From: Hyphomicrobiales bacterium
GTDB lineage: Bacteria > Pseudomonadota > Alphaproteobacteria > Rhizobiales > OSC116
Reading direction: 5' to 3'
NCBI GenBank assembly: GCA_013214705.1
Contig: JABSRZ010000003.1
Span: forward strand, 713,443-777,442
DNA length: 64,000 nt
Part shown: piece by piece, positions 5,850-30,964 of the stretch
Layout of the letters: each line of letters opens with the position of its first letter
Position numbering within the stretch: position 1 is the stretch's first letter
Notes under the pieces: generated by a model
What the model saw: only the letters and a program-made list of their open reading frames with translations
Database searches by the model: none
What the model was told of the DNA's origin: nothing
Position numbers and translations under genes: made by a program

Positions 5850-6512
5850 ATGTTACTTAAGCACCAACATCTAACTCGTAAAACGATTATAAAAAATGAC
5901 ATATACCGAAGCACAATAGACCGAAGTATAATAAAAAGACTGTCCAAGTTTATTTTGGCAGTCTTTTTGGTTTTTGTCGGCTCAGTCTCGGCCGCAATGC
6001 CCGCATTGGCCGCAAATGATGTCTGCGCCCAGCCACCTATGGCCGAAATTTTGCCCGAACTTGTCATCAATATGCGCCAAGACATCATCCGCGCCGCCAA
6101 AACTGGCGATATGGAGCAAATGCAATATGTTGTCGAGCAAAATGAAGTGTTGCCAATTGCAAAATTCAATGCGGCGCAAGATGCAAATAATTCGCCTTTA
6201 GTGGCTTGGCAAGCTCAATCGCAAGATACAGATGGGCTATATATATTGGCACAGATGATAGAAATATTAAATCTGGGTTTTGCAAAACAAGCCTTAATAG
6301 CAGGGGTTGACCTCTATACATGGCCATATTTTGCCGATCAGGATATTAGCCAACTTTGCCCAACTGAACTTGTTGACCTATTGACCATATCTAGCCCGCA
6401 AGCCGTCAAACAAATGCAACAAATAAGGCTTTATACCGGTTTTCAGCTGGCCATTGGCAGCGATGGCAGTTGGCATTATTTTGCGCGCAAAAATATTGTA
6501 ATCAACAAATAA
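5850..6512 (+). CDS. Exported protein of unknown function, 220 aa
   Basis: The N terminus is long and basic, followed by a hydrophobic core (FILAVFLVFVGSVSA) and an ALAAN site at about residues 51-55, consistent with a Sec signal peptide. The mature part has a cysteine soon after cleavage (NDVCAQPP) and another late (QLCPTE), which may pair in the periplasm. It has alternating helical segments that could resemble ankyrin-type repeats (AAKTGDMEQMQYVVEQNEVLP), but the repeat assignment is weak. The function is unknown. It lies 37 bases upstream of ygfZ. Confidence 0.72.
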   Translation: MLLKHQHLTRKTIIKNDIYRSTIDRSIIKRLSKFILAVFLVFVGSVSAAMPALAANDVCAQPPMAEILPELVINMRQDIIRAAKTGDMEQMQYVVEQNEVLPIAKFNAAQDANNSPLVAWQAQSQDTDGLYILAQMIEILNLGFAKQALIAGVDLYTWPYFADQDISQLCPTELVDLLTISSPQAVKQMQQIRLYTGFQLAIGSDGSWHYFARKNIVINK

Positions 6513-17880: not shown

Positions 17881-18492
17881 ATGGCCAAAAATAAAACTCC
17901 CAATATTCCGGTTATTTATAAACTGGTAAACAAATTAAAATTAGCCACTTTTGCTTATATTCAGAAACAAATGCAATTGCAAAAACCCAAATTGCAAACT
18001 GCTGATAAATTGGCAAAATTTGCAGGCCTAGAACAAACCATAGCGCGGCTTAAATTACAGGCTCAGCTAAATTTAGCTGGCTCAGATGAACCGATAGAAA
18101 ATTATTATATAGATGGTAAGCTGCTCAGTGCCGCGCAAGAAAAACAATATGAGCAAGATTTTCAGTTCGAAACTTATGCGCCAGAAGCCCATTATATAGT
18201 GCGCACCAACCCCTACCGCATTTCGGTTCAAGCGCCAGATGAACCGCTGCAAAAAGGCCGGTGGCGTAGTTTGCGCTCAGTGGTGATAGAGGTTGAAGAT
18301 CTCGGCCCGATCGAGGCTGACATTTGGCTGGTGATCAAAACTGATGATGGTGATTGCCGCTTTCCTGATGGCGCAATGGGCAGCGCCGAGGTGATAGAGC
18401 AGCTTTATAAATTAGATGGTTTTGACCATGAGGTGTTTATCAAGGCGATGGCTTGCGGGGTTAGGGCTAATTTTACGGTTTACAGTAGGTGA
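17881..18492 (+). CDS. Protein of unknown function, 203 aa
   Basis: No family is recognised. The first 70 residues are basic and helical, rich in Lys and Gln (YIQKQMQLQKPKLQTADKLA). The C-terminal half looks like a compact alpha/beta domain with GRWRSLRSVVIEVEDLG, ADIWLVIKTDDGDCRFPDGAMG and VFIKAMACGVRANFTVYSR. There is no signal peptide or membrane segment. The gene ends next to a copy of the dispersed repeat, convergent with the S49 protease gene. Confidence 0.68.
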   Translation: MAKNKTPNIPVIYKLVNKLKLATFAYIQKQMQLQKPKLQTADKLAKFAGLEQTIARLKLQAQLNLAGSDEPIENYYIDGKLLSAAQEKQYEQDFQFETYAPEAHYIVRTNPYRISVQAPDEPLQKGRWRSLRSVVIEVEDLGPIEADIWLVIKTDDGDCRFPDGAMGSAEVIEQLYKLDGFDHEVFIKAMACGVRANFTVYSR

Positions 18493-18541
18493 TGCATCCA
18501 TTTCCGTTTTTTAGCTCAGAACTCTGAGTTGCCGCCGGGTT

Positions 18542-18695
18542 GCACTCCTGCCTCCACAGGGATGCTTGCATTTATACGTTCGCTGCGCTCTCTGTTAGCA
18601 CTTGCGTGCGCTCGGCACAGCCTCGCTAGCCACCGCGCGTTAGGTGGCAGCGGCTTCGAACGGCTGCTTTCGCGCTCACCGAAATCGCGGCGTAT
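18542..18695 (-). repeat. Dispersed structured repeat, copy A (inverted)
   Basis: The boxes GCACTCCTG, TGCATTTATACGTTCG, GCACTTGCGTGCG and CACCGCGCGT match, in the same order, the inverted copies near 22.3 and 30.8 kb and, as reverse complement, the direct copies near 22.0, 28.2 and 28.6 kb. It fills the gap between two convergent genes and is visibly GC-richer than its surroundings. No open frame in it is convincing as a gene. Confidence 0.8.
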
Positions 18696-18716
18696 TTAGC
18701 AGGTGGCTATTGGTTT

Positions 18717-19595
18717 TTAGAGGCCGAAGCGGTTCCAGAGGGCTTTTTCTTCGGCCACTTGGGCTAGGCCGTGAGCTACGCCGACACCGATGTCGCTGAC
18801 ATTTCCGCCGGCTAGGGCCGCGGGGGTACTCGAGCCAAACATTTTTTTCAGTAGGCCTTTTTTGCCGATACTCACGTCTTTAAAACGCACTTGTTCGCCA
18901 AATTTTTCCTTCATCACGCTGTAAACATCGCCAATGCCATCAATTAAACCATGGTCTTTGGCGCGTTTTCCGGCCCAAAAATCACCATTAAACAGAGTTT
19001 CATCGTCAGATTTCAGCTTGTCTTTGCGCCGATCACGCACATGTTGTTTAAACGCATCATGTATGTCGCCAGACATTTGGTTTATCAATGCCACATCTTG
19101 TTTATTCTCCGGCATAAACATATCAAGTTTGTTTTTATTTTTGCCAGAGGTATAAACCCGCCGATCAATGTCCCATTTTTTCATCAATCTATCGACACCA
19201 AATGTCGACATAATCACCCCGATAGAACCAATAATGCTGGTTTCATGGGCATAAACTTCGTCACCTGCCAACACAATCCAATAGCCGCCAGATGCCGCGA
19301 CATCCTCAGCAAATGTATACACTGACACATCGTGTTTTTTCGATAAAGCGCGTATCCGGTCATGTATCAAGGCGCTTTGCACCGGGCTGCCGCCGGGTGA
19401 GTTGATCGATATCGCCACCGCGTCAATTTTGTTCATTTCAAAGGCTTTTTCGAGCGCATCTTTTACCGATGCCAAGTTAAGCCCGGCTTTAAAACTACTG
19501 CCTTCGCCAATCACCCCGGTTAGCCTAACGGTGGCCACAATCGGGTTGGTGCTGCGCATTTTCTTGGGTAAAAACGGGTCTAAAAATTCAAACAT
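18717..19595 (-). CDS. S49 family serine protease (SppA/SohB-like)
   Basis: A 292-residue member of the signal peptide peptidase A family. The nucleophile is in DVAASGGYW, the general-base Lys in YTSGKNKNKLD, and the oxyanion region in SINSPGGSPVQSA, all in the expected order. It lacks a clear membrane segment at the N terminus, like the short S49 proteins of alphaproteobacteria. These enzymes degrade membrane-derived peptides, and the precise role here is unknown. Its 3' end abuts repeat copy A. Confidence 0.88.
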   Translation of the reverse strand: MFEFLDPFLPKKMRSTNPIVATVRLTGVIGEGSSFKAGLNLASVKDALEKAFEMNKIDAVAISINSPGGSPVQSALIHDRIRALSKKHDVSVYTFAEDVAASGGYWIVLAGDEVYAHETSIIGSIGVIMSTFGVDRLMKKWDIDRRVYTSGKNKNKLDMFMPENKQDVALINQMSGDIHDAFKQHVRDRRKDKLKSDDETLFNGDFWAGKRAKDHGLIDGIGDVYSVMKEKFGEQVRFKDVSIGKKGLLKKMFGSSTPAALAGGNVSDIGVGVAHGLAQVAEEKALWNRFGL

Positions 19596-19691
19596 AAAAT
19601 CCTCATTAAATCAGTTATAGGTTAAATAGTGTTTGGCCAGCCAAATTACAATATTTAGCCAGCTATTTAGTCATTTATTAAGCCAAAAATT

Positions 19692-20450
19692 TTACATCAT
19701 TATGTTTTTACCATGCCTAAAAATACCCTCGGCAAACTCGGTAACGCTGCCATTATCATGGCGTAAATTCAATTGCCTAAGCATTTTCAACGGCGCGCGG
19801 CTGCCCTTTTTAGCCTGCAATAAAAACCTAGTGGCGGGGGCATTGGGCTTGCTAAATATCGGCCGGATGGATATATCACCCACGCGGTTTTCCAATATTT
19901 TTAGCACTTCATACAAATGTTCCATCGGGTAGATAATGCTCATCAGGGCTTTGTTTTTAAGCAACCTCACCATAAATATCAGCCAACGAGCCAAATCATC
20001 GTGTTTTATGCTGTGGGCAAGGGCTTTATAATCATCAGCCGATGTTTTGTTTTTTTTAGGGTCAAAAAATGGTGGGTTAGAATATATATGGTCAAAACTA
20101 TCGGAGGTTAAACCGCGTTTTTCAAATTGCTTGGCCGGCTCAAAAATATCTGCATTTACAATTTCTATATAGGCTTCAAAATGGTTTTTATCGACATTAT
20201 ATTGCGCCAATTTGGCAACATTTTTAAACTTTTCAAGCGCGGTTATTTTGGTGGCTAGTTCAACTCCAACCCGGGCTAAATAACACAGGCTTGGCGCGCC
20301 CACGCCGGCGCCCACTTCTAACATTTTGCCTTGGCATAAAGGCAGTGCAGCGGCCAATAGCAGCGCGTCAGACCCGGCTCTATAACCTTTTTTTGGTTGG
20401 CGTAATATTAGTTTACCGTCTAAAAAATCATCATCGGTATAGTCATCCAT
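19692..20450 (-). CDS. tRNA1(Val) adenine-N6 methyltransferase family (TrmN6/YfiC-like)
   Basis: A Rossmann-fold SAM methyltransferase of 252 residues. Motif I reads LEVGAGVGAPSLCYLARV (about residues 42-59), and the catalytic motif for amino-methylation is NPPFFDP. The N-terminal LRQPKKGYRAGSDALLLAA is the TrmN6/COG4123 signature. The E. coli homologue methylates A37 of tRNA1(Val); the same target is plausible but not certain. It is followed upstream by a DUF2007 gene 8 bases away, a pairing common in alphaproteobacteria. Confidence 0.88.
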   Translation of the reverse strand: MDDYTDDDFLDGKLILRQPKKGYRAGSDALLLAAALPLCQGKMLEVGAGVGAPSLCYLARVGVELATKITALEKFKNVAKLAQYNVDKNHFEAYIEIVNADIFEPAKQFEKRGLTSDSFDHIYSNPPFFDPKKNKTSADDYKALAHSIKHDDLARWLIFMVRLLKNKALMSIIYPMEHLYEVLKILENRVGDISIRPIFSKPNAPATRFLLQAKKGSRAPLKMLRQLNLRHDNGSVTEFAEGIFRHGKNIMM

Positions 20451-20458
20451 ATACGGCC

Positions 20459-20674
20459 TTACTCATTATATTTTTCAGCGAGGGTAAAATAGGTTTTGTG
20501 CGCCGCTTCATAATCGTCATCTATCACCATCACCCGCTTCTGAAAAGCCCCAATTGAGCCCTCTAACATAGAAATATTTTCATCAAAAATAAATGTCACA
20601 ATGTCCTCTTGTTCCAACATATTCCTGACATAGGATATAAATACAGAGTCTAAACTTTCAAATAGTAGTTTCAT
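20459..20674 (-). CDS. DUF2007 family small protein
   Basis: A 71-residue protein with the DUF2007 pattern: an MKLLFESLDSVFISYVRNMLEQEDI start, a central acidic FDENIS turn and a VMVIDDDYEAA motif. DUF2007 is annotated as a putative signal-transducing protein with a ferredoxin-like fold, and its biochemical role is not established. It is the first gene of a two-gene unit with the TrmN6-like methyltransferase and diverges from the polyprenyl synthase. Confidence 0.82.
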   Translation of the reverse strand: MKLLFESLDSVFISYVRNMLEQEDIVTFIFDENISMLEGSIGAFQKRVMVIDDDYEAAHKTYFTLAEKYNE

Positions 20675-20712
20675 AGTGCTTAATCCAATCCATTTTTATC
20701 CAAATTGATATA

Positions 20713-20727
20713 TTAAAAATTAGTTAA
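20713..20727. promoter_or_regulatory. Perfect CtrA-type box between DUF2007 and polyprenyl synthase genes
   Basis: TTAAAAATTAGTTAA matches TTAA-N7-TTAA, centred 40-45 bases from both divergent starts. The sequence is AT-rich, so chance occurrence is more likely than for the other boxes. Confidence 0.35.
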
Positions 20728-20762
20728 TTTCACTTGACCTTAGCATAAATAAACCCCAGATA

Positions 20763-21815
20763 ATGAAGGTAATGTTATTCAAGAGGCAAGACATCGTGGG
20801 CGCTATTTTACAATATAAAAAAACCAGCAGGCCAGACCTTGCATTGCTATTGGCGCTTACCAAACACGATATGGGTCGGGTCAATGAAAACATCCTTTCA
20901 CACACCGGCTCGCATGTCAAAACCATCCCACAAGTTGCCAACTATCTTATCGATAGCGGCGGCAAGCGCATTCGGCCCATGTTAATGCTGGCAGCGGCGC
21001 AATTGTGCGGCTATCAAGGCGATCATCATATTGTTATTTCGACTGCCATAGAATTCCTACACACCGCCACATTGCTACATGATGATGTGGTCGATGATAG
21101 TGACATGAGGCGCGGCAAACAAGCCGCCCGCAAAATTTGGGGCAATGAAAATAGCGTATTGGTTGGCGATTTTTTACTGGCCCGAACGTTTAATATGATG
21201 GTTAAAACCGGGTCTTTAGAGTGTCTCAACTCGCTTTCCGGCGCGGCGGTTACCATTTCGGAAGGTGAGATTATGCAACTCGCTGCGGCTAAAAATACCT
21301 CCACAACCGAAGATCATTATTTAAAAATTATCCATGCAAAAACCGCCGCATTGTTCGAAAGCGCCTGCGAAATGGGCGCGATGATTTCTGACGCCAGTGA
21401 AGAGCAGCGCCAAGCCCTACATTCATTTGGCCATAATTTGGGCATTGCGTTCCAATTGGTCGATGATGCGTTAGATTTCGGCGGTGGCTCTGGCCTCGGC
21501 GCCCAATTAGATAAAAATATTGGCGATGATTTTCGCGAACAAAAAATCACCCTGCCGATTATTTTCGCCTACCGCGAAGGCAGCATGGATGAGCGCAATT
21601 TTTGGGACAGAACCCTCAAACATGGCGACCAAAAAGATGGCGACCTAGAGCATGCCATCTCGTTATTGGCCAAATATGATACACTTAACAAAACCAAGTT
21701 ACGTGCCGAGCATTATGCCTCTAAAGCTGTGCAGGCGTTGGCTCTGTTTCCAGAATCCGAAATGCGCACCGCGTTAGAACAAACCGTAGCATTCTGTATT
21801 GCTCGCGAGAAGTAA
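20763..21815 (+). CDS. ispB: Long-chain polyprenyl diphosphate synthase (ubiquinone side chain)
   Basis: The 350-residue protein has the two aspartate-rich motifs of trans-prenyltransferases: LLHDDVVDDSDMRRG (first) and QLVDDALDF (second), plus GGKRIRPMLMLAAA. Small residues upstream of the first motif permit long products, as expected for octa- or decaprenyl diphosphate used in ubiquinone synthesis. Alphaproteobacteria usually make Q-10, so decaprenyl is likely. An internal start at MGRVNENIL is possible since about 35 extra residues precede the family core. A strong hairpin follows it. Confidence 0.9.
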   Translation: MKVMLFKRQDIVGAILQYKKTSRPDLALLLALTKHDMGRVNENILSHTGSHVKTIPQVANYLIDSGGKRIRPMLMLAAAQLCGYQGDHHIVISTAIEFLHTATLLHDDVVDDSDMRRGKQAARKIWGNENSVLVGDFLLARTFNMMVKTGSLECLNSLSGAAVTISEGEIMQLAAAKNTSTTEDHYLKIIHAKTAALFESACEMGAMISDASEEQRQALHSFGHNLGIAFQLVDDALDFGGGSGLGAQLDKNIGDDFREQKITLPIIFAYREGSMDERNFWDRTLKHGDQKDGDLEHAISLLAKYDTLNKTKLRAEHYASKAVQALALFPESEMRTALEQTVAFCIAREK

Positions 21816-21911
21816 AAACCTGTAGTTGAATCTATATCGCTCACGGCTATTCTTCGCTTGGCTCAGGCCTACGCGGGTGCGCCACATAAGTGGCGGCCTC
21901 CAGTCCGGCTG

Positions 21912-21939
21912 GTTCAAAAAACACATGAGTTTTTTGAAC
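21912..21939 (+). terminator. 11-bp stem-loop downstream of the polyprenyl synthase
   Basis: GTTCAAAAAAC-ACATGA-GTTTTTTGAAC is a perfect inverted repeat about 97 bases past the stop. A/T runs inside both arms would let it act as a terminator in either direction, though the GC content of the stem is low. A smaller hairpin GCCAC-ATAA-GTGGC precedes it. Confidence 0.5.
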
Positions 21940-21965
21940 GGGAGTTGTCCGGCAAGTTTGTGCTG

Positions 21966-22160
21966 AGTTTCCGTATACCTCCAAGCACCCCTGCGATTCG
22001 GCGAGTGCGCCCAGAAGCCGACAGGCAAACTCTGTGGCCAACGCGCGGAGGCTAGTGCGAATATTGAAAATATGAGCACGCACGCAAGTGCAAACAGTGA
22101 AAGAGGCGAAGCCGAAAGAACGTATAAATGCAAGCACCCCTGTAATGGCAGGAGCGCGAA
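21966..22160 (+). repeat. Dispersed structured repeat, copy B (direct)
   Basis: Shared boxes: GATTCGGCGAGTGCGCCC, AGAAGCCGACAGGCAAACTC, ACGCGCGGAGGCTAG, CGCACGCAAGTGCAAACAGTG, GAACGTATAAATGC and GGCAGGAGCGC. Between the boxes the sequence differs from the other copies but still folds: ATATT-GAA-AATAT and GGC-GAA-GCC. A further shared module (TCTGAAAC... CACAGCTTTT) follows at about 22195-22240. Confidence 0.85.
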
Positions 22161-22254
22161 CTTTCTATGTCTTAGCAAGATCAACGGCTGGCTCAGCTTC
22201 TGAAACTCCCTCGCAAAATATCAACAACACAGCTTTTCAGCCAGCTCAGGGGCA

Positions 22255-22400
22255 GCGCTCCTGCCAACACACTGGAAGTCTGCATTTATACGCTCGGCTT
22301 TAGCCTCGCTGTTGACACTTGCGTGCGTTCGCTACGCTCTCTAGCCTCCGCGCGTCCGTCGGCAGCGGCTTCGAACGGCCGTATTCGCACTCACCGTATG
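22255..22400 (-). repeat. Dispersed structured repeat, copy B2 (inverted)
   Basis: It reads CGCTCCTGCC, TCTGCATTTATACGCTCG, GACACTTGCGTGCG, CTCTAGCCTCCGCGCGT in order, the reverse complement of the direct copies. Its variable hairpin is GGCTTTAGCC. With copy B it fills the 600-base gap between the convergent polyprenyl synthase and ispE genes. No gene is seen in the gap. Confidence 0.85.
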
Positions 22401-22414
22401 GCACGTATTCGGTG

Positions 22415-23320
22415 CTATCCGGAAAATGTTGTTGGCTGTATCCACCAATTTGGGTGGCGGTTGGCCAATTTTCGTGCGGCTAATTCTGCTTCGCTTTGGT
22501 TTGTGAACAAACCAAAACAAGTTGCGCCACTGCCGCTCATGCGGCTTAGCATTATGTCGTTAATGGCGTTTAGCTCAGCCAACACATTGCCAATTGCTGG
22601 GCAGATGGCCACCGCTGCTGCCTGCATATCATTGGTTTGCAGTTGCAAAAAGCCAACCAAATCCTGTGCAGTTTTAAAGGTCGGGGCATCTTTGCCCACA
22701 AACTCATAATCATCCAACTGCGCAGATGCGTTTAAACGGCCGAATATTTTTGCGGTCGAGACCGCTTCATTGGGGTTGACTAAAATTGCGTTTAATTTCG
22801 GCAGATTGCGCCATTTTTCAAGCCGCTCGCCAATGCCGGTCATAAGGCTATTTTCAGCGCCATAACATACCGGCACGTCTGCGCCCAATGCCAGCAACAT
22901 TTCATCAACATCGCCGTGCTGGTCATAGGCTTGCTTCAACAGCTTTATCGCCATGGCCGCGTTGGCCGAGCCACCACCAATTCCTGAGGCCAAGGGTAAG
23001 TTTTTTTGCAGGTTAAATTTGCCGCACACTTTTAGCTCAAACCGGTGTTCAAACGCTTTAGCGGCTCGGATAATTAAATTATCGCCCAGGGCAAATTTGG
23101 CCAATTCGGTGGCATATTGGCCATCGATATCAAGGCTTAAGTCTTTTGCCCCTGGCTCATTTGCCACCCCTGGCTCAAATGTCAACTCATCACCAAAGTC
23201 AGCAAAAGTCACTAGGCTTTCTAAAATATGGTAGCCATCGGCTCTTTTACCTTTTATGTGCAAAAATAAATTCGCTTTTGCCGGGCATAATTGTTTATAA
23301 ATCGCTGGGACGGTTGGCAT
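22415..23320 (-). CDS. ispE: 4-diphosphocytidyl-2-C-methyl-D-erythritol kinase
   Basis: IspE is the GHMP kinase of the non-mevalonate isoprenoid pathway, phosphorylating the 2-hydroxyl of CDP-ME. It has CPAKANLFLHIKGKRADGYH at the N terminus, the GHMP ATP loop LPLASGIGGGSANAAMA (about residues 95-111), and GADVPVCY followed by GIGERLE. The length, 301 residues, is typical. It begins directly at the stop of the TPR/LysM gene with no gap. The 3' end runs to the edge of repeat copy B2, so the last residues may be divergent. A polyprenyl synthase nearby makes an isoprenoid-related neighbourhood. Confidence 0.94.
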   Translation of the reverse strand: MPTVPAIYKQLCPAKANLFLHIKGKRADGYHILESLVTFADFGDELTFEPGVANEPGAKDLSLDIDGQYATELAKFALGDNLIIRAAKAFEHRFELKVCGKFNLQKNLPLASGIGGGSANAAMAIKLLKQAYDQHGDVDEMLLALGADVPVCYGAENSLMTGIGERLEKWRNLPKLNAILVNPNEAVSTAKIFGRLNASAQLDDYEFVGKDAPTFKTAQDLVGFLQLQTNDMQAAAVAICPAIGNVLAELNAINDIMLSRMSGSGATCFGLFTNQSEAELAARKLANRHPNWWIQPTTFSG

Positions 23321-25300
23321 TTATTCTAACTCTAAATATTTGGGTAATAATAATATCTGGCCGGGATATATTGCCTCTGGGTCGCTTAAAACAGATTTAT
23401 TGGCTTCAAAAATCAGGTTATAATGCTCGCCGGTGCCATAAATCCGGTAAGATATATCCCACAGGCTTTCGCCTTCCTCGACAATGGCTTCACCCATATT
23501 TGGCACGGTTTTGGGTTCAGGCTGTGGTTTTTTCTGGCTGGCATTTTTTTCAATCAGCGCATCTAAACCAAAAGCGCGTTTATATTCCAGATCATCATAA
23601 TTAATTTCTGGCGATTTAAATATAGTCGCCTGCTGCCATTTAAATTCAGCCTCTAATTTGCGGCCTAATTTCCAATATACATCGCCCAAATGGTCACTAA
23701 TGTCAGCATTGCTGGGGCTTAAATCCAGCGCCTGTTCAAGCTCTATGCGGGCCAAATCATATTTACCAAGCTTATAATAAACCCAGCCCAGACTATCGAT
23801 GATAAATGCGTTACGTGGCTCGACCAATAAGGCATTTTCGATCATCTTAAGCCCTTGCTCAAGGTGGATGCCTTTATCAACCCAGGTATAGCCTAAATAA
23901 TTTAAAGCCGATGAATGATTGGGGTCTAACAATAAAGCTTGCCTAAAATCTTTTTCTGATTTCGGCCATTGTTTTAACCGCTCATAGCTCACCCCACGGT
24001 GAAAAAACAAATTGGCGTGGTTAATGTTCAAATCGTCCAAATTGTTGATTATTTTATCATAATAAACCAGCGATTGTTCGTATTTTTCATTGCGTTTGAG
24101 CATATGGGCATAAGCCAGATATACGGTTTCATCCACCTGTTTGAGCGGCAACAAACTAGCCAGTTTTTTCAATGCCAAATCTGTCTGGCCATTTATTTCT
24201 AAATTATTGGCGATGCGAATTTGCGACCTTAAATAAAACGGGCTAGATGGCGGAATTTTTTCTAACTCAACATTGGCGATCAAATTTTTGCCAATCGCCT
24301 GAAAATTCAAAGACAGATTATTCAGAATGTAATTGTTTGTGGGCGCCATATATTGTGCCAAGCGGGCGTAATTTATCGATTCATCAAAATTCTCAGCGCT
24401 ATAATATATATTGGCAATATGATACAGGTTATAGGCAATGGCTTGTTGGGCGTTGCTAATAAATGGCGCAGGTATTTTGTCGGTCTTTAGCCGTTCCAAC
24501 GCTTGGGTTATCACCGGGTGTTCGCCAGCTCTGTTCACAAAATCATCATATAAAGCAAAGGCTTTTTGCTTATTGTCAGTGCGTTCTAAAAACCGCCCAT
24601 AGGCTTCTATTAGGTGTAATTTTGTACCACCGAGTTTTAGCGCATCATTATAAAACCGGTCGGCATCATCATTACGGCCTTGCAATTGGGCAAATACTGC
24701 CGAATTTATCAAATAATATATTCTAAAAAAGCTGTTATCTTGCAGCCTATTTATATTGTCGGCAGTGTCTAGGGGCTTGCCCAATGCATAATTTATCCAT
24801 GCCGATAACAGTTGAAAACTCATTTCAGAAATGATGAAATCATCGCCTCGATTTAAACTTGCAAGGGCTTGCTTATAGTTATTCTGCTTCACTTGGCCAA
24901 GTGTTAAAAATAATCGCGATAGGTTATAATGGCCAGTGTCAGCTTCATCTATTGTGGGGTTTGAATGGTGGTATAGGCTGGCAAATGCATTGGCTTTTTC
25001 AAATTCGCCATTGATTAGTTGCACCACAAATAGGCTTTCAATAAACACCCGGTCGGTTGGGTCATTTATAAATAATTTCGATAAAAATGCCGCAGCGCTG
25101 CTATAATCTCGCTTACTCAAAGCTAAATTTGCCGCCAAAAAATTGCCCGAATATGTGCCCGGCGCGCCGCGCTGGGTGGCGTTAGAAGTATTGGATGCAT
25201 AAACAGAGGTTAGCCCGCTTAACGCCAACAAGCTGATGGCCAAAAAGGCCGAAATTATTTTTTTCACGTCTCTTAACCGAGTTATTTTCATCATATTCAT
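23321..25300 (-). CDS. Exported TPR-repeat protein with C-terminal LysM domain
   Basis: A 659-residue protein. A signal peptide (IISAFLAISLLALSGLTSVYA) is followed by many tetratricopeptide repeats; the best-preserved ones are near residues 435-560 (FFHRGVSYERLKQWPKSEKDFRQALLLDP, then NYLGYTW and SLGWVYYKLGKYDLA). The last 55 residues form a LysM-type domain (EEGESLWDISYRIYGTG... PGQILLLP), unusual as an addition to alphaproteobacterial TPR proteins of this type. It likely works in the periplasm at the cell wall as a scaffold. It is co-transcribed with ispE. Confidence 0.85.
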   Translation of the reverse strand: MNMMKITRLRDVKKIISAFLAISLLALSGLTSVYASNTSNATQRGAPGTYSGNFLAANLALSKRDYSSAAAFLSKLFINDPTDRVFIESLFVVQLINGEFEKANAFASLYHHSNPTIDEADTGHYNLSRLFLTLGQVKQNNYKQALASLNRGDDFIISEMSFQLLSAWINYALGKPLDTADNINRLQDNSFFRIYYLINSAVFAQLQGRNDDADRFYNDALKLGGTKLHLIEAYGRFLERTDNKQKAFALYDDFVNRAGEHPVITQALERLKTDKIPAPFISNAQQAIAYNLYHIANIYYSAENFDESINYARLAQYMAPTNNYILNNLSLNFQAIGKNLIANVELEKIPPSSPFYLRSQIRIANNLEINGQTDLALKKLASLLPLKQVDETVYLAYAHMLKRNEKYEQSLVYYDKIINNLDDLNINHANLFFHRGVSYERLKQWPKSEKDFRQALLLDPNHSSALNYLGYTWVDKGIHLEQGLKMIENALLVEPRNAFIIDSLGWVYYKLGKYDLARIELEQALDLSPSNADISDHLGDVYWKLGRKLEAEFKWQQATIFKSPEINYDDLEYKRAFGLDALIEKNASQKKPQPEPKTVPNMGEAIVEEGESLWDISYRIYGTGEHYNLIFEANKSVLSDPEAIYPGQILLLPKYLELE

Positions 25301-25446
25301 GCGCCAACAAACCCCATACTCTTCACAATATCTGCCAAACCCGCAGATTGGTTACATAACCTATAAGTAAGATAGGTTTATATAAAGTTATTTAAAACTC
25401 TAGCTAGCCATAAATAATGTCATAAATATGTAGGTTTGGTGAATTT

Positions 25447-27120
25447 TTACATATTTGGGTAGTTTGGCCCACCGCCGCCTTCTGGCACCATCCAGGTGAT
25501 ATTTTGCGCCGGGTCCTTTATGTCACAAGTTTTGCAATGTACGCAATTCTGGCCATTAATCTGAAAATATGGTTTGCCGTCTTTTTCAATAATTTCATAA
25601 ACTCCGGCCGGGCAGTAACGTTGTGCTGGTTCGGCAAATTCAGCCAAGTTTTTATCAATGGGTATAGACGCATCGGCCAAAACCAAATGGCAAGGTTGGT
25701 CTTCTTCGTGGTTGGTCGCGCTTAAAAAAACCGATGATAATCGGTCAAAAGTTATTTTTCCATCCGGCTTGGGATATTCAATCACCTTACATTTATCGGC
25801 TGGCAATAGGCTTTGTGCATCCGATTTTTTATGGTGCAAAGTATAACCGCCCAAAAACGGCAATAATGTTTGCAACCACATTTCGAACCCGCCCAACAAC
25901 ATGCCGAAATAATTGCCAAAGCGCGATATTAATGGCTTCACATTGCGTATTTTCTTAAGGTCTCTGCCAATTGGTCCGGTTAAAACCATGTCACTATAAG
26001 CGGTTAGCTCATCGTGCGAGCGGCCTTCACTTATGGCGTCAAACGCCGCTTGCGCGCCATGAATGCCCGACCATATGGCGTTATGCGTGCCTTTTACGCG
26101 CGGTAAATTTACCATGCCAGCGGCGCAACCTAACAAGATGCCACCGTTAAATGCCAATTTGGGTAGCGATTGATAACCACCTTTGGTGATGGCTCTGGCG
26201 CCATAGGCAATGCGTTTGCCGCCGGCCAAAACTTCGCTAATTGCCGGGTGAGTTTTAAATTTCTGAAACTCACCATAAGGCGAAATATACGGGTTGGCAT
26301 AATCCAAATCGGTAATGTAACCAATCGATATTTGGTTATTGTCCAGATGATACATAAATGAACCAGAGCCAACATTGGCCGGCGATGGCCACCCCAAGCT
26401 ATGCATGACCAAGCCCTCATCATGCATTTCAGGGTCAATTTCCCACAATTCTTTAATGCCAAGGCCAAATTTCGGCACATCGCAGTCGGCATCTAAATCA
26501 AATTTTTCGATAAGCTGTTTGGCCAATGAGCCGCGCACACCCTCGCCAATTAAGGTATATTTGGCATGTATTTCCATGCCGCGTTCAAAGCTGGGTTTGG
26601 GCTTGCCGTCAGCGCCAATGCCCATGTCGCCGGTCGCCACGCCTTTTACCGCGCCATTTTCATCATATAATATTTCAGCGCCGGCAAAGCCTGGGTAAAT
26701 TTCCACGCCCAAAGCTTCGGCTTGTTCGCCCATCCAGCGACTTAAATTGCCCAAGCTGATGATATAATTGCCGTAGTTATGCATTAATGGCGGCAATATA
26801 AAATTGGGTATGCGCAGCAGGCCAGAGTGGCCAAACAAATACATTTTGTCTTTTTTCACCGGCACATTTAACGGCGCGCCACGTTGCTGCCAATCGGGTA
26901 TTAATGCGGTTAACGATATCGGGTCTATCACCGCGCCCGAAAGTATATGCCCGCCCACTTCAGCGCCTTTTTCCAGCACCACTACAGACAGTTGTTGTTC
27001 CGCTTTTTGCGCCAATTGCATTAGTTTTATGGCGGCCGATAAGCCGGCTGGGCCAGCGCCAACAATCACCACGTCAACATCCATAGATTCGCGGGGCTCT
27101 AAGCCCGAATTTTCACTCAT
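25447..27120 (-). CDS. etfD: Electron transfer flavoprotein-ubiquinone oxidoreductase
   Basis: ETF-QO passes electrons from acyl-CoA dehydrogenases, through ETF, to ubiquinone at the membrane. The product has about 557 residues, with an N-terminal FAD-binding sequence (VVIVGAGPAGLSAAIKL), a ubiquinone-binding region and the C-terminal 4Fe-4S cluster motif CPAGVYE...NCVHCKTCDIKDP. The start is the ATG at 27120, with AAAGG 8 bases upstream; the GTG at 27138 lacks a ribosome-binding site. Acyl-CoA dehydrogenase genes at 1 and 56.5 kb are likely electron donors. Confidence 0.95.
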   Translation of the reverse strand: MSENSGLEPRESMDVDVVIVGAGPAGLSAAIKLMQLAQKAEQQLSVVVLEKGAEVGGHILSGAVIDPISLTALIPDWQQRGAPLNVPVKKDKMYLFGHSGLLRIPNFILPPLMHNYGNYIISLGNLSRWMGEQAEALGVEIYPGFAGAEILYDENGAVKGVATGDMGIGADGKPKPSFERGMEIHAKYTLIGEGVRGSLAKQLIEKFDLDADCDVPKFGLGIKELWEIDPEMHDEGLVMHSLGWPSPANVGSGSFMYHLDNNQISIGYITDLDYANPYISPYGEFQKFKTHPAISEVLAGGKRIAYGARAITKGGYQSLPKLAFNGGILLGCAAGMVNLPRVKGTHNAIWSGIHGAQAAFDAISEGRSHDELTAYSDMVLTGPIGRDLKKIRNVKPLISRFGNYFGMLLGGFEMWLQTLLPFLGGYTLHHKKSDAQSLLPADKCKVIEYPKPDGKITFDRLSSVFLSATNHEEDQPCHLVLADASIPIDKNLAEFAEPAQRYCPAGVYEIIEKDGKPYFQINGQNCVHCKTCDIKDPAQNITWMVPEGGGGPNYPNM

Positions 27121-27229
27121 ATCATAGCCTTTATTCACTCTAAACTGCTAAAAGAATATATATCACGGTTTTTTAAATCTTTGCTATTAAAAACTTGAAA
27201 ATAACTCGCAAAACTGGTCTATTCGCAAC

Positions 27230-28144
27230 ATGCAGCAATCCGATTCCACCAATTTAGATAGCTTAAATGCCGACGAGCTTTTGGACATATTGAGCTGGTA
27301 CGCGCTGGCCGGTGTCGATGAGGCGATAAGCGATGAGGTGACAAATCATTTTGAAAACCTAACTACGCCAATTACCCTAACTACGCCAATTATAAAGCCT
27401 GCACCAATTTTAGCGCCCGCACCAAATGCAGAACCCGCGCCGCAAACCCCAACCACGCGTGCGCCTCAAGCCGCTGCAATAACCACAGCCGCACCCAAAA
27501 CCAACCAAACCCGCTTGGCAAAAGATTTGCGTGCGGGCCAAGTCAATTACCAACATTCGATAAAGCTTGCCCAAAAACTTTCGGCCGCATGCGACGACTT
27601 GAATAGCCTGTCCAAGGCCTTGCACGGGTTTGAGGAATGCAGCCTAAAGCTCACCGCCAAACATCTTATTTTTGGCGAAGGCAATGAGCATGCAGACATT
27701 ATGTTAATTGGCGAGTCGCCCGGGCGCGATGAAGATATGATCGGCCATGCTTTTGCCGGCACAGCCGGTTTAATGCTCGACCAAATCCTAGCGGCTATAG
27801 GCTTAGAGCGTAAAAATGTTTATTTGGCTTATTTGCTGCCATGGCGCTCATTGGGCGGGGTGGCGCCAAGTCAGGCCAATATAGACATTTGCCAGCCGTT
27901 TTTAACCCGGCAAATCGAGCTGGTGAAACCCAAAATCATCATCACTTTCGATGCCCTAGTGTGCAAAATCCTGACCCAGCAAAAAGGCAGTATTTTGCAA
28001 ACCCGCGGAAAATTTACCGAAATTATTCTCGGCGAACAAAGCTTCAAAACCATCCCCACATTCCACCCCCAATTGCTGCAAGCTAACCCAAACTACAAAC
28101 AACTAGTCTGGCAGGATTTTTTGAGTGCAAAGTCGGCGGTTTGA
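27230..28144 (+). CDS. Uracil-DNA glycosylase, family 4-like
   Basis: The C-terminal 190 residues show the family 4/5 UDG motifs: GESPGRDEDMIGHAFAG (motif A) and HPQLLQAN (motif B), with IFGEGNEHADIMLI before. The N-terminal 100 residues are Pro/Ala-rich and low-complexity (PAPILAPAPNAEPAPQ), as in alphaproteobacterial members. Of the four cluster cysteines, only some candidates are visible (C in FEECSLK, C in NIDICQP), so Fe-S binding is uncertain. It removes uracil from DNA. Repeat copy C begins 17 bases after the stop. Confidence 0.85.
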   Translation: MQQSDSTNLDSLNADELLDILSWYALAGVDEAISDEVTNHFENLTTPITLTTPIIKPAPILAPAPNAEPAPQTPTTRAPQAAAITTAAPKTNQTRLAKDLRAGQVNYQHSIKLAQKLSAACDDLNSLSKALHGFEECSLKLTAKHLIFGEGNEHADIMLIGESPGRDEDMIGHAFAGTAGLMLDQILAAIGLERKNVYLAYLLPWRSLGGVAPSQANIDICQPFLTRQIELVKPKIIITFDALVCKILTQQKGSILQTRGKFTEIILGEQSFKTIPTFHPQLLQANPNYKQLVWQDFLSAKSAV

Positions 28145-28160
28145 GGTTGCTGCCGATAAA

Positions 28161-28404
28161 CTGCACCACCCCTACACATTCTGAATTTCCGTCTGCCCGC
28201 AGGAATCCCGGCGATTCGGCGAGTGCGTCCAAAAGCCGAAAGGCAAACTCTGTGGCCACCGCGCGGAGGCTAGCCGACACTTGCGGAAGCAAGTGGCTGC
28301 GCACGCAAGTGCCAACAGTGACAAGGCCGTTAGGCCGCAGGAACGTATGAATGCAGACTTCCAGAGTGTGGGCAGGAGCGCTAAGTGGGTTTGTCTTTAC
28401 AGCC
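28161..28404 (+). repeat. Dispersed structured repeat, copy C (direct)
   Basis: It is nearly the same as copy D, 342 bases downstream. Both start CTGCACACCCCTACACATTC-like and end CTTTGTCTTTACAGC-like. Variable hairpins inside: CACTTGC-GGAA-GCAAGTG and GGCC-GTTA-GGCC. It runs from just after the uracil-DNA glycosylase gene. Confidence 0.88.
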
Positions 28405-28426
28405 TCAAATGCAGGTTCGGCATCTG

Positions 28427-28470
28427 AAACCCCAGCGCAAAACTTCAACATCACAGCTTTTAGGCGAGCC
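28427..28470 (+). repeat. Accessory module of the dispersed repeat
   Basis: TCTGAAACCCCAGCGCAAAA...TCACAGCTTTT recurs after copy B (about 22197-22236) with a few changes. It shows that the repeat family has a longer form with an extra 3' segment. Confidence 0.6.
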
Positions 28471-28502
28471 CGAATGCCGCCGTTCGAAGCCACCGCCGAT
28501 CA

Positions 28503-28744
28503 TCTGCACACCCCTACACATTCTGAAGTTCCGTCTGCCCGCAAGAATCCCAGTGATTCGACGAGTGCGCCCAGAAGCCGAAAGGCAAACTCTGCGGGCA
28601 ACGCGCGGAGGCTAGCCGACACTTGCAAAGCAAGTGGCTGCGCACGCAAGTGCTAACAGTGACAAGGCCGATAGGCCGCAGGAACGTATAAATGCGAGAA
28701 TCCCTGTGTTGGCAGGAGTGCTAAGTGGCTTTGTCTTTACAGCG
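28503..28744 (+). repeat. Dispersed structured repeat, copy D (direct; left border of the island)
   Basis: Same boxes as copy C, with hairpins CACTTGC-AAA-GCAAGTG and GGCC-GATA-GGCC. Its 3' portion GGCAGGAGTGCTAAGTGG (28711-28728) is the exact reverse complement of 30780-30797 in copy E, giving an 18-bp perfect inverted pair around the three-gene island. Copies C and D account for the 620-base gap; no gene is seen there. Confidence 0.88.
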
Positions 28745-28763
28745 GTAGAGGTAAATTGAGAAA

Positions 28764-29207
28764 CTAAAACACTACCCCACAATTAGATATCTTCATACTC
28801 CTTCCACCATTCTTAAATGTTCCAAAGAACACTCCATACTCCACACCACATTTATCGTTCAATGGTGTCCAGACATCACCAAGTGAAAAGGTCTTTTCCA
28901 TATAACTAATAGCGGCAAAACCTTCGTTAGAAATCTCACTCAGGAAAAATGCGGTTAAACAAAGCTTTTTGCAATAACCCCCTTCCATTCTTACAACAAT
29001 ATATTTTGTGTCTGGCAGAACAATTTCGAATTGGAAATATTCCAATTTTTTTCCTGCAACTCTGTTATATATATGAGCCACGCTCTGAACCGCTTCAATT
29101 TGATCAATTGTCGCAGGTTCAAACACATTCTTCGGCGTCGCCATTATCGAATGTGCGGCGGTTACACTGTGCAAGAGGAAAACGAATATTATCAAAGACT
29201 TTTTCAT
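28764..29207 (-). CDS. Exported protein of unknown function (island gene 3)
   Basis: A 147-residue protein with a clear signal peptide (KKSLIIFVFLLHSVTAAHS). The mature part has several cysteines (GGYCKKLCLTAF, DKCGVEYG, SNCGVVF), which may form disulfide bonds in the periplasm. The family is not recognised. Base composition and codon choice are AT-richer than the flanking genes. It is the last gene of a three-gene minus-strand group bounded by inverted repeat copies. Confidence 0.7.
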   Translation of the reverse strand: MKKSLIIFVFLLHSVTAAHSIMATPKNVFEPATIDQIEAVQSVAHIYNRVAGKKLEYFQFEIVLPDTKYIVVRMEGGYCKKLCLTAFFLSEISNEGFAAISYMEKTFSLGDVWTPLNDKCGVEYGVFFGTFKNGGRSMKISNCGVVF

Positions 29208-29266
29208 AAATTATAACTCCAAACACTTAAGATCAACTCATTACGGGATTTGTCTCTGGTGAGTAT

Positions 29267-30124
29267 TCAATTCTTCAAATCCATTATCTTCGAGCCCAAA
29301 AATTCAATCTGGCTAAACTCTAGAATTCGAGAAAAATCAATATTATTGTCTTTGACAAACTCTCCAAACATCCTTTTATCTCTGGAGTTTTTTTCTAAAT
29401 ATGGCAAATAGCTAGCTACAAAAAATCTTGTTCCAACCTTGCATTCAGGGTTGATATTGTCATGATTTGAATCAGAAAAGAAACCCATAGGCGGTTTGCC
29501 ATTCAGAATCACTTCTGTTTTAACATGTGTGCCCTTGCAATCATCGATTTTAGCTATAAATGCAAAACTGGTCCGCTCAATCCATTGGTTTAATGTGAGC
29601 GACAAACCTGATTTGAGAGTCGGATCATCTACTAGTTTGCGAACAGCAGCTAGCCATAAGTCATTTGCTGTATTTATTTCTTCATATGCACGGGTGTGTG
29701 GGTTATCCAAAAAAATTAAATATGTCTTACCCGTGACAAATTGTGGGTGCATTTTACAGTCTGGGCCGTACCCCGCTCGAGTTACACCGCTATCCCAAAA
29801 TGCCAAATTTCTATGGCCATCAAAGTCCTCTTCTATTTGCCCACGCAAATAATAATTCTTAAACTCATCATCTTGATTAATAACCCGTCCATTTGAGACA
29901 ATAAAAGTTGCTAAAGCATCGCCTTTTATTACTTCTATGGTTTCAAATTTCGCACCAGAAACATTTTCAACATCACTCGCTCTAGCAACTATTATTGAGT
30001 TTGTTTGTTTAACTAACTCGGTGTGATGTACCCATAAACAACTTGGTCCAAAAGGACGGGCACTAACGTTTGTTAAATTAAAGATCATAAAAACAGTTAG
30101 TAAAAACGGAAACGTTTTCATCAT
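29267..30124 (-). CDS. Exported protein of unknown function (island gene 2)
   Basis: A 285-residue protein with an N-terminal signal peptide (TFPFLLTVFMIFNLTNVSA). The mature part contains SCLWVHHTELVKQTNSIIVARA, IEVIKGDALATF and GKTYLIFLD, a beta-rich layout that resembles tissue-inhibitor/NTR-like domains only loosely. Paired cysteines occur (GPDCKMHP, DDCKGTH, NPECKVG). No function can be given. It shares a 'catcataaattacaactcc'-type leader with its downstream neighbour, suggesting duplicated promoter/leader sequence. Confidence 0.7.
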   Translation of the reverse strand: MMKTFPFLLTVFMIFNLTNVSARPFGPSCLWVHHTELVKQTNSIIVARASDVENVSGAKFETIEVIKGDALATFIVSNGRVINQDDEFKNYYLRGQIEEDFDGHRNLAFWDSGVTRAGYGPDCKMHPQFVTGKTYLIFLDNPHTRAYEEINTANDLWLAAVRKLVDDPTLKSGLSLTLNQWIERTSFAFIAKIDDCKGTHVKTEVILNGKPPMGFFSDSNHDNINPECKVGTRFFVASYLPYLEKNSRDKRMFGEFVKDNNIDFSRILEFSQIEFLGSKIMDLKN

Positions 30125-30182
30125 AAATTACAACTCCAAAGATTAATAATCACATCAACAAAATAGAAACTTAGCATGCTTA

Positions 30183-30695
30183 CTAACAATATTGAGTAAT
30201 ATATACATATTCACTCGATATTCTAAAAACTTTTACTTTGCATTTTCCCTTGAAATTGTGGTTATATTTGGAATTTATTCGCATTAATTCTATAATTGGT
30301 TGGGTATTATTTTCATCTATCTTCATTAGAAAATAGAAAATAACAGTGCCATACCAGCCGTCGCTATAGTGGCTCCAACTTACCATGTCGCCGTGATGTT
30401 GTGGTAATTGATCTTTTGAGGTAATTTCAATTTTCGCCAAATTCCAATAAATTAAATAGGCACCATTTACACGTGGCGCAACTATAGTAGCACAATATAT
30501 GCCCACGATTAACGATATTGAAACCAGTATAAATCCAAACCGTTTTACAATCATAAAAGTGAATAAAAATGCTGCTAAAATAAATATTATTGATAAGATC
30601 AGAAGTCCGACTTTTAAGAAATCTACAAATACAAATGTAAATAAAACAAAATACAACACCGTACATGCAAATAAATTTAACGCCAATGTGCTCAT
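30183..30695 (-). CDS. Multi-span membrane protein of unknown function (island gene 1)
   Basis: About 170 residues from the ATG at 30695. A TTG at 30713 has a better ribosome-binding site (AAAGG) and could add six residues; a GTG at 30746 is also in frame. Three to four hydrophobic segments fill the first half (LFACTVLYFVLFTFVFVDFL, LLILSIIFILAAFLFTFMIV, FILVSISLIVGIYCATIV), followed by a hydrophilic C-terminal domain with MVSWSHYSDGWYGTVIFYFLM. The family is unknown. It is AT-rich and clearly different in composition from the housekeeping genes on both sides. Confidence 0.65.
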   Translation of the reverse strand: MSTLALNLFACTVLYFVLFTFVFVDFLKVGLLILSIIFILAAFLFTFMIVKRFGFILVSISLIVGIYCATIVAPRVNGAYLIYWNLAKIEITSKDQLPQHHGDMVSWSHYSDGWYGTVIFYFLMKIDENNTQPIIELMRINSKYNHNFKGKCKVKVFRISSEYVYITQYC

Positions 30696-30778
30696 TTTAT
30701 TTCGTTTGCCCAATTCGCTTACCTTTCTTATTTGATAGCAGCACACTTACCGCATTCATCATGTTTCTTTTAGGGCGA

Positions 30779-30964
30779 ACCACTTAGCACTCCTGCCAGC
30801 TCTCTGGAAGTCTGCATTTATACGTTCTTTCGGCTTCGCCTCTTTCACTGTTGGCACTTGCGTGCGTTCGCTGCGCTCTCTAGCCTCCGCGCGTTGGCCT
30901 CAGAGTTTGCCTTACGGCTTCTGGGCGCACTCGTCGAATCGCAGGGGTGCTTGGGGGCATACGC
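30779..30964 (-). repeat. Dispersed structured repeat, copy E (inverted; right border of the island)
   Basis: Reads CCACTTAGCACTCCTGCC, TCTGCATTTATACGTTC, GGCACTTGCGTGCG, TCTCTAGCCTCCGCGCGT, CTTCTGGGCGCACTCGTCG in order, the reverse complement of the direct copies. Its hairpin is GGC-TTC-GCC. The outer end stops 10 bases before the stop of the DUF2064 gene. Confidence 0.88.

Follow-up and report, generated by a model that had tools for sequence, protein, structure and literature searches.

A genus-specific modular foldback repeat with selected hairpins at gene ends in uncultured Hyphomicrobiales

Variation among intergenic repeats is usually a matter of copy number or of point changes. Small dispersed repeats of cyanobacteria are tiny hairpins that spread into intergenic regions and into one another. 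Integron attC sites are hairpins directly behind a gene that act as single strands, the cassettes lying in the same direction and being served by the IntI integrase, and at the minimal mobile elements of Neisseria different genes occupy one site between common neighbours and are exchanged via the conserved flanking genes. Repetitive extragenic palindromic sequences (REPs) are presented in PMC3733652 as single hairpins of 20-40 bp with a GTAG or CGTC tag. The sponge mitochondrial hairpin elements (RHE) of PMC2800124 are likewise tiny and invade both intergenic regions and one another, and in the accounts of phage N4 in PMC4496689 and PMC8373063 the hairpin of one strand is the stable one. Here we describe a repeat found in a 64-kb stretch of DNA (the window; positions 713443-777442 of contig C23) from the 3.5-Mb draft genome, 98.9% complete, of a Hyphomicrobiales bacterium. 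It is a genus-specific modular foldback repeat that lies at gene ends and carries hairpins under selection. The hairpins likely matter as DNA, their modules are likely exchanged between copies, and the arms of the repeat possibly serve in gene exchange.

Arms, mirror-image pairs and copy number

The element is built from arms some 215 bp long. In each arm, fixed boxes alternate with variable slots, four in number, and slots b and c carry short hairpins. Moving away from the gene, an arm starts with an outer end near CTGARTTTCC and a 5' part of type A1 or A2. Box ACGCGCGGAGGCTAG, slot b, box GCACGCAAGTG, AACAG, slot c and box CGTATAAATG follow in this order, and the arm ends with slot d, box GGCAGGAGYGC and a tail of type X or Y.

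The first-pass annotation of the window had listed six copies in both orientations. All lie where it placed them, and GCACGCAAGTG was located at six positions of the window, three on each strand (plus at 22080, 28301 and 28642; minus at 18599, 22316 and 30855). These are six arms, but those at 21.97 and 22.26 kb form one inverted pair and are not independent insertions. The boxes described as fixed recur: CGCGCGGAGGCTAG and CGTATAAATGC are each exact in five of the six copies, the 18.6-kb copy having GGTGGCTAG in place of the former and the 28.3-kb copy CGTATGAATGC in place of the latter. The self-complementary hairpins quoted were located at 28325, 22105/30832, 22296, 28278 and 22061. As claimed, the copies are GC-richer than the window (0.54-0.61 versus 0.448), and five of them lie between convergent open reading frames (ORFs), the sixth (30.78 kb) lying between two minus-strand ORFs. 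The arms of the window and the parts referred to below are as follows.

18525..18699, minus strand: solo arm of type A2 with short b and c hairpins (profile match, 130 bits)
21957..22209, plus strand: left arm of the inverted pair; slot b ATATT-GAA-AATAT, slot c GGC-GAA-GCC (204 bits)
22192..22427, minus strand: right arm of the inverted pair with 21957..22209 (profile match, 152 bits)
22158..22254, no strand: asymmetric centre of the pair, about 100 bp long and lying between an X-tailed and a Y-tailed arm end (22-pair centre alignment)
28176..28433, plus strand: arm; slot b CACTTGC-GGAA-GCAAGTG, slot c GGCC-GTTA-GGCC (profile match, 209 bits)
28447..28499, plus strand: weak arm fragment between two tandem arms (profile match, 15 bits, E 7e-4)
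28519..28772, plus strand: arm forming the left border of a gene-containing interior (profile match, 205 bits)
28616..28641, plus strand: example of a slot b module, CACTTGC-AAA-GCAAGTG, between the fixed boxes at 28602 and 28642
28660..28684, plus strand: example of a slot c module, GGCC-GATA-GGCC, between AACAG and CGTATAAATG
30778..30964, minus strand: arm forming the right border of the interior at 28764..30746 (profile match, 152 bits)

Convergent pairs comprise 52 of the 88 arm hits. Among own-genome arm neighbours less than 60 bp apart, 26 of 30 were plus then minus and four minus then minus. The same plus-minus order was seen in 12 of 12 such neighbours in the relative G001 and in 11 of 12 in the relative G005, counted over parts of those genomes; minus then plus was never seen in any of the three. 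Alignment of 22 pairs by their centres gave a centre of about 100 bp. Since two arms usually face each other around such a centre, the whole element folds back on itself; folded as RNA, the entire 21957-22427 pair gave a z score of -8.3.

Iterated profile searches over the window and 23 fetched regions yielded 78 segments, 58 of them near-complete arms. A covariance model was built from 54 of these, four with insertions or deletions being left out, and the boxes are invariant over the 54 aligned copies. The absence of further copies had been named beforehand as grounds for abandoning the family. The genome-wide search with the model returned at least 109 matches at E<=0.001 in the genome of the window, a lower bound because 150 of 668 candidates were scored. 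This number and the invariant boxes go far beyond chance. Under strict filters, and with at most 73 candidates scored per genome, the model matched all six genomes of the genus and was without a match in a set of 35 genomes representing as many other families of the order. The exact two-box pattern matched six metagenome-assembled genomes (MAGs): NORP94, NORP194, NORP83, NORP335, DT_98 and BB6. According to PMC9426424, the NORP names denote MAGs from North Pond crustal fluid, and NORP83 is there placed in the order Rhizobiales. Copy number is uneven both between and within genomes. Four genus genomes hold at least 68 matches each, while G003 has only 4 and G004 only 6, a difference that may reflect recent expansion or loss. 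Eight arm hits were found in 237 kb of contig C23, all in the last third, and 32 on the 192-kb contig C45.

A phage or plasmid origin was considered and dropped: a 281-bp query had no match among phages or plasmids, and the exact pattern is absent from viral contigs. None of the 4227 Rfam models matched positions 18.0-31.5 kb up to E=1 or any part of the window at the gathering threshold. A literature search, in a library holding few subscription papers, found no paper on the repeat; in the texts it covers, the box 12-mer CGCACGCAAGTG occurs in papers on cyanobacteria or microalgae and the other three strings in none.

Selected hairpins, their loops and the ends of genes

From compensating changes, the first-pass annotation had argued for selection on RNA or single-stranded DNA structure. 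Double changes do occur in three sets of same-length modules (13, 12 and 18 distinct sequences), but the commonest change is the replacement of a whole hairpin at a slot by an unrelated one. Changes on both sides of a pair that keep the pairing were found in 9 of 78, 9 of 84 and 15 of 108 cells in the three sets; alignment A3 took 12 of its 13 listed references, and A4 (20 of 21), being gapped, was left out of pair counting. Neither the covariation score nor the number of double-change cells was reached by any of 500 shuffles in each set, and slid versions of the three alignments scored lower. The covariation in these module sets supports the proposed selection. A pseudoknot of the scaffold (stem P2) was also considered and is unsupported, its middle positions being paired in just 13-20 of 45 sequences.

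The loops are biased to one type and one strand. We counted distinct hairpins with stems of at least 4, taking the rest of the same contigs as the comparison. On the arm strand, triloop hairpins of the form C(G..A)G made up 19 of 120 in arms versus 47 of 3886 elsewhere, and the corresponding tetraloop hairpins 27 of 157 versus 49 of 5498. The complementary loop type (triloops and tetraloops, respectively) occurred 4 times and once in arms, and 43 and 41 times elsewhere. Within the modules, 47 of 71 triloops are GNA. Module tetraloops of the G..A type, counted per genome, have a pyrimidine as third base in 36 cases and a purine in 9, another 20 tetraloops being of other types; the same loop kinds recur on different stems. 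RNA would favour GNRA loops. DNA favours d(cGNNAg) (Nakano et al. 2002, as cited in PMC8373063), and for phage N4 a C-G closing pair together with loop G and A is given in PMC4496689 as required for hairpin extrusion. Because the arms carry C(GNA)G and C(GNNA)G loops, on one strand and mostly with a pyrimidine third base, which are kinds that stabilise DNA hairpins, we infer that the hairpins act as DNA; they would do so either extruded from the duplex or formed in single-stranded DNA. Selection on single-strand structure, as first proposed, is thus supported, and of RNA and DNA, between which that proposal did not decide, the loop types favour DNA.

The position of the arms is also compatible with RNA. 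Gene ends were scored for 122 arms scoring at least 60 and starting within model position 12. In the genome of the window the outer arm end faced a gene 3' end in 48 of 56 cases, a gene start in 7 and neither in 1 (one copy was entered twice, at L034 and on C23, so that 48/56 corrects to 47/55). The counts were 19, 5 and 1 in G001 (n=25) and 29, 8 and 4 in G005 (n=41). In 25 of the 48 own-genome arms facing a 3' end the stop codon lies -14 to +11 nt away, and some genes are terminated by the element's own TGA. Such placement, a favoured loop strand that is the sense strand of the gene in front, and the strong fold predicted for the pair as RNA would suit an element of the 3' untranslated region, produced on transcription of the gene in front and ending transcription from both sides or protecting mRNA ends in the manner of REPs. 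We regard this as rather unlikely. The tetraloops are mostly GNYA, not GNRA; the region contains 15 terminator-like sites versus 16.0 expected, and the one that overlaps an arm lacks a strict T-run; no Rfam family matches. Placement at gene ends, moreover, also follows from selection against damage.

When an arm lies 100-140 bp from the stop codon, a T-run hairpin (TTCGCCAAnAAnTTGGCTCGCC) often stands between it and the gene, as in own-genome arms with outer distances of 105-141 (e.g. L046 near 16340 and L039 near 2600).

One orthologous site is filled here and empty in two relatives (588 bp between the anchors versus 48 bp in both). At the empty site two genes end in one common TTAA; at the filled site TTAA, which contains both stop codons, flanks the insert on both sides. 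As a non-autonomous mobile element, the repeat may enter the spacers that separate gene ends.

Exchange of modules and of the genes between arms

Across 58 arms, 47 distinct four-slot combinations were found, and slot d shows no association with any other slot. The genus as a whole holds 74 distinct module sequences in slot b and 68 in slot c, of which 28 and 39, respectively, fold better than 95% of shuffles, a test that short modules are unable to pass. Of the 34 slot b modules of the genome of the window and the 15 of NORP94, one is common to both, and likewise one of 38 and 17 in slot c. The genome of the window and NORP194 have 2 b and 4 c modules in common, and NORP94 and NORP194 have 7 and 10. 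The pools of b and c modules are largely species-specific, although the boxes are common across species, and orthologous arms, read by eye, often hold differing modules. Hairpins may spread among copies through recombination or gene conversion, with the fixed boxes as anchors; each species would therefore build its own module set.

Two further repeats were noticed. A micro-module of 37 nt, which has a GCGNAGC hairpin of its own and in arms breaks into the GCACGCAAGTG box, occurs in 10 distinct contexts (L044 9273, minus; L017 1470, minus; L195 12057, plus; and seven more), five inside and five outside arms, in at least three genomes. A second hairpin-rich repeat adjoins arms in NORP94 and NORP194 (L119, about 6280-6450; L151, about 12050-12210) and has the segment CTAGAGAGCGNAGCGAACGCACGC in common with them.

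We also asked what lies between arms that are further apart. The loci examined contain 22 distinct interiors of 250-4000 bp between a plus and a minus arm. Twenty ORFs from 14 of them were searched, and 11 could be assigned to Pfam families (E<=0.01): Tle1-like, glyoxalase, resolvase, DUF6119, methyltransferase, LysE, DUF805, ThsB twice, ThsA and MFS-like. Four of 10 interior proteins matched in a PADLOC comparison, one of them weakly. The interiors and neighbouring ORFs of the window, and two interiors from related genomes, are listed here.

28764..30746, minus strand: three ORFs (28764-29207, 29267-30124, 30183-30746) inside a plus-minus arm pair; AT-rich, no Pfam family
17881..18492, plus strand: 203-aa ORF beside the 18.5-kb arm, on its inner side; no Pfam family
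L093 2085-3514 (NORP194, contig NVQL02000027.1): complete Thoeris pair, ThsB then ThsA of the macro type, between a plus and a minus arm
L154 2272-2841 (G005, contig C79): 189-aa serine resolvase (PF00239) between a plus and a minus arm; a candidate for an enzyme that might act on arm DNA

The orphan ORFs 29267-30124 and 28764-29207 begin with signal-peptide-like stretches. A second own-genome ThsB-TIR gene lies at 1702-1995 of contig C43, on which no arm match was found.

These interiors raise the question of whether the arms are mainly recombination sites of a gene-exchange platform, swapping cassettes as minimal mobile elements or, loosely, integron sites do. In keeping with such a role, GC was at most 0.39 in 10 of the 14 searched interiors, as against 5.6% of own-genome 1.2-kb windows (mean GC 0.450), and the genes are patchily distributed: among the six genus genomes a 285-aa ORF of the window is present in two, DUF6119 in one and ThsB_TIR in two. 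One orthologous site, at 28.1-31.0 kb, holds three different interiors in three species: three ORFs here, a plain 100-bp centre in G001 and the serine resolvase between arms in G005. Both flanking genes are common with G001, and on the G005 contig only the right-hand one. The 18.5-kb interval measures 779 bp here, about 150 bp in G001, 312 bp in G005 and 85 bp in G003; the 203-aa ORF is found only here among the aligned intervals of these three relatives, and the G003 interval has neither arm nor ORF.

Residual length changes of at least 300 bp were found in 13 of 40 gaps with arms versus 31 of 256 others (p 0.003), and of at least 500 bp in 10 of 40 versus 29 of 256 (p 0.024), in a test that counts sites against two relatives and in which gaps are not independent. 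The enrichment, however, is only 3.5-fold. Most pairs are empty, defence genes are a minority of interiors, and one of the three ThsB_TIR genes of the genus lies on a contig without arm matches. Gene-sized neighbours in three genomes comprised 20 plus-minus, 12 minus-plus, 4 plus-plus and 9 minus-minus, but own-genome arms 250-3999 bp apart were plus-minus in 6 cases and minus-plus in 7, so that genes are not enclosed in excess there. A mainly gene-exchanging platform therefore seems improbable, even though arm-to-arm recombination might on occasion let accessory genes replace interiors. An earlier idea placed every indel near the window at an arm; it was given up on wider comparison, arms being present at just 4 of 11 and 2 of 6 breaks.

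Weighing the readings and comparison with known systems

Taken in full, our reading is of a genus-specific foldback repeat, modular and of high copy number, that is under selection to form DNA hairpins and whose arms trade hairpins and, in some cases, interiors; we consider it an even call. Several observations weigh against this reading. Single arms fold only weakly compared with shuffles (z of -1.4 as RNA and -1.5 to -1.7 as DNA), and the strong fold of the pair thus arises from the pairing of its two arms. Of 500 shuffles per module set, 274, 40 and 59 gave at least as many pairs with double changes, and double changes are absent from the fixed-length scaffold stems examined in 45 sequences. 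The loop counts overstate independence, as the modules share descent. Linkage among slots is weak yet present, and slots are not fully free: A with c gave p 0.002, b with c 0.0015 and c with the tail 0 of 2000 permutations, with weaker linkage of A with b (p 0.024) and b with the tail (p 0.035). Placement at gene ends fits an RNA role too. The link of the arms with gene-content change is modest, and the lack of excess gene enclosure in the own genome counts here as well. Over 19 pairs, target duplications amounted to just 4-6 nt matches at varying offsets, none of them consistent, and a transposase of the Y1 family (PF01797), sought at the suggestion of the first-pass annotation as a REP-associated tyrosine transposase, had no match in the genome of the window, the control ringing in 5 of 14 genomes.

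We rejected a REP driven by such a transposase, as there is no Y1 family in the genome of the window. A fixed-size target duplication or YTAR target was not seen consistently across pairs. A search for the IS91-type Y2 enzyme gave no match, yet its control gave none either.

A bolder version, in which DNA mini-hairpins with C(GNA)G or C(GNNA)G loops are themselves the exchangeable units, replaced within a genome by docking at fixed boxes, species re-stock the slots, and paired arms form a platform for the exchange of accessory or defence genes, strikes us as doubtful. The repeat could also be purely selfish, its hairpins kept only for a transposition enzyme, of no benefit to the host and without recombinational exchange, and its mosaics being old subfamilies. 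Restriction to the genus, the very uneven copy number and the existence of filled and empty sites are consistent with this. We think it very improbable, however, since 47 combinations in 58 arms and an unlinked slot d fit poorly with few subfamilies and the Y1 search of the genome found no enzyme. That the centre encodes a small peptide with the arms as its regulatory ends has next to no chance: one reverse frame is nearly open over 20 centre copies (3 stops), but in 20 of the 22 centres (two mis-oriented rows left out) no frame carried a significant coding signal, five of the six frames having |z| below 2 and the best positive z being 1.67, and a coding centre was ruled out.

In this repeat one entire hairpin takes the place of another at a given slot, pairing being preserved, and each slot offers many natural variants across related species. 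These variants would constitute a ready-made mutational scan of the DNA hairpins that cells tolerate or need, and the loop bias offers a direct route to testing DNA versus RNA function. If the arms do border exchanged genes, they would mark sites of gene exchange, including that of anti-phage genes, in uncultured marine bacteria.

Several known systems share part of this design. Minimal mobile elements have their counterpart in a single site, that at 28.1-31.0 kb, where both flanks are common with G001, except that here repeat arms border the interior. Like attC, the arm is a hairpin site directly behind a gene; unlike attC sites, neighbouring arms face each other and stand behind conserved housekeeping genes. 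Hairpin repeats of cyanobacteria and mitochondria invade intergenic regions, whereas in the present element one hairpin is substituted for another within a scaffold that stays fixed. Miniature inverted-repeat transposable elements (MITEs) are likewise non-coding, of high copy number, with inverted ends and present or absent at orthologous sites, and the convergent arms provide the inverted repeat. MITEs are AT-rich, however, whereas the copies here are GC-rich (0.54-0.61), with no consistent target duplication and no matching transposase in the only searches made, that for Y1 and that for Y2, whose control was silent. The early promoter hairpins of phage N4 share short stems, a C-G closing pair and G..A loops, as described in PMC4496689 and PMC8373063, but they are phage promoters, and nothing promoter-like is suggested here.

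REPs and REP dimers come closer. In the account of PMC3733652 they are palindromic and intergenic, often pair in opposite orientation, lie mostly downstream of genes and less than 20 bp from the 3' ends of convergent ORFs, and include heterodimers with different stems. Here, 47 of 55 outer ends lie at a gene 3' end and 26 of 30 close neighbours are plus-minus. The arm, however, is about 215 bp long with four slots, the Y1 transposase of the GTAG class has no match in its own genome, and no GTAG or CGTC tag beside a single palindrome was seen by eye in the 54- and 58-copy alignments, in which no dedicated search was made. The BOX element of Streptococcus pneumoniae, as presented in PMC3049150, is also composite, modular, intergenic, strongly folded and over-represented between convergent genes. 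It belongs to a different phylum, has a different layout and varies mainly in the number of boxB copies between boxA and boxC, whereas here each slot takes one of many alternative hairpins and the arms are mirror-paired, a comparison made by description only. The element is thus akin to REP dimers in where it lies and how it pairs, and to BOX in its modularity; it is set apart from REPs by size and by the tag that REPs carry, and from BOX by modules that are swapped rather than counted.

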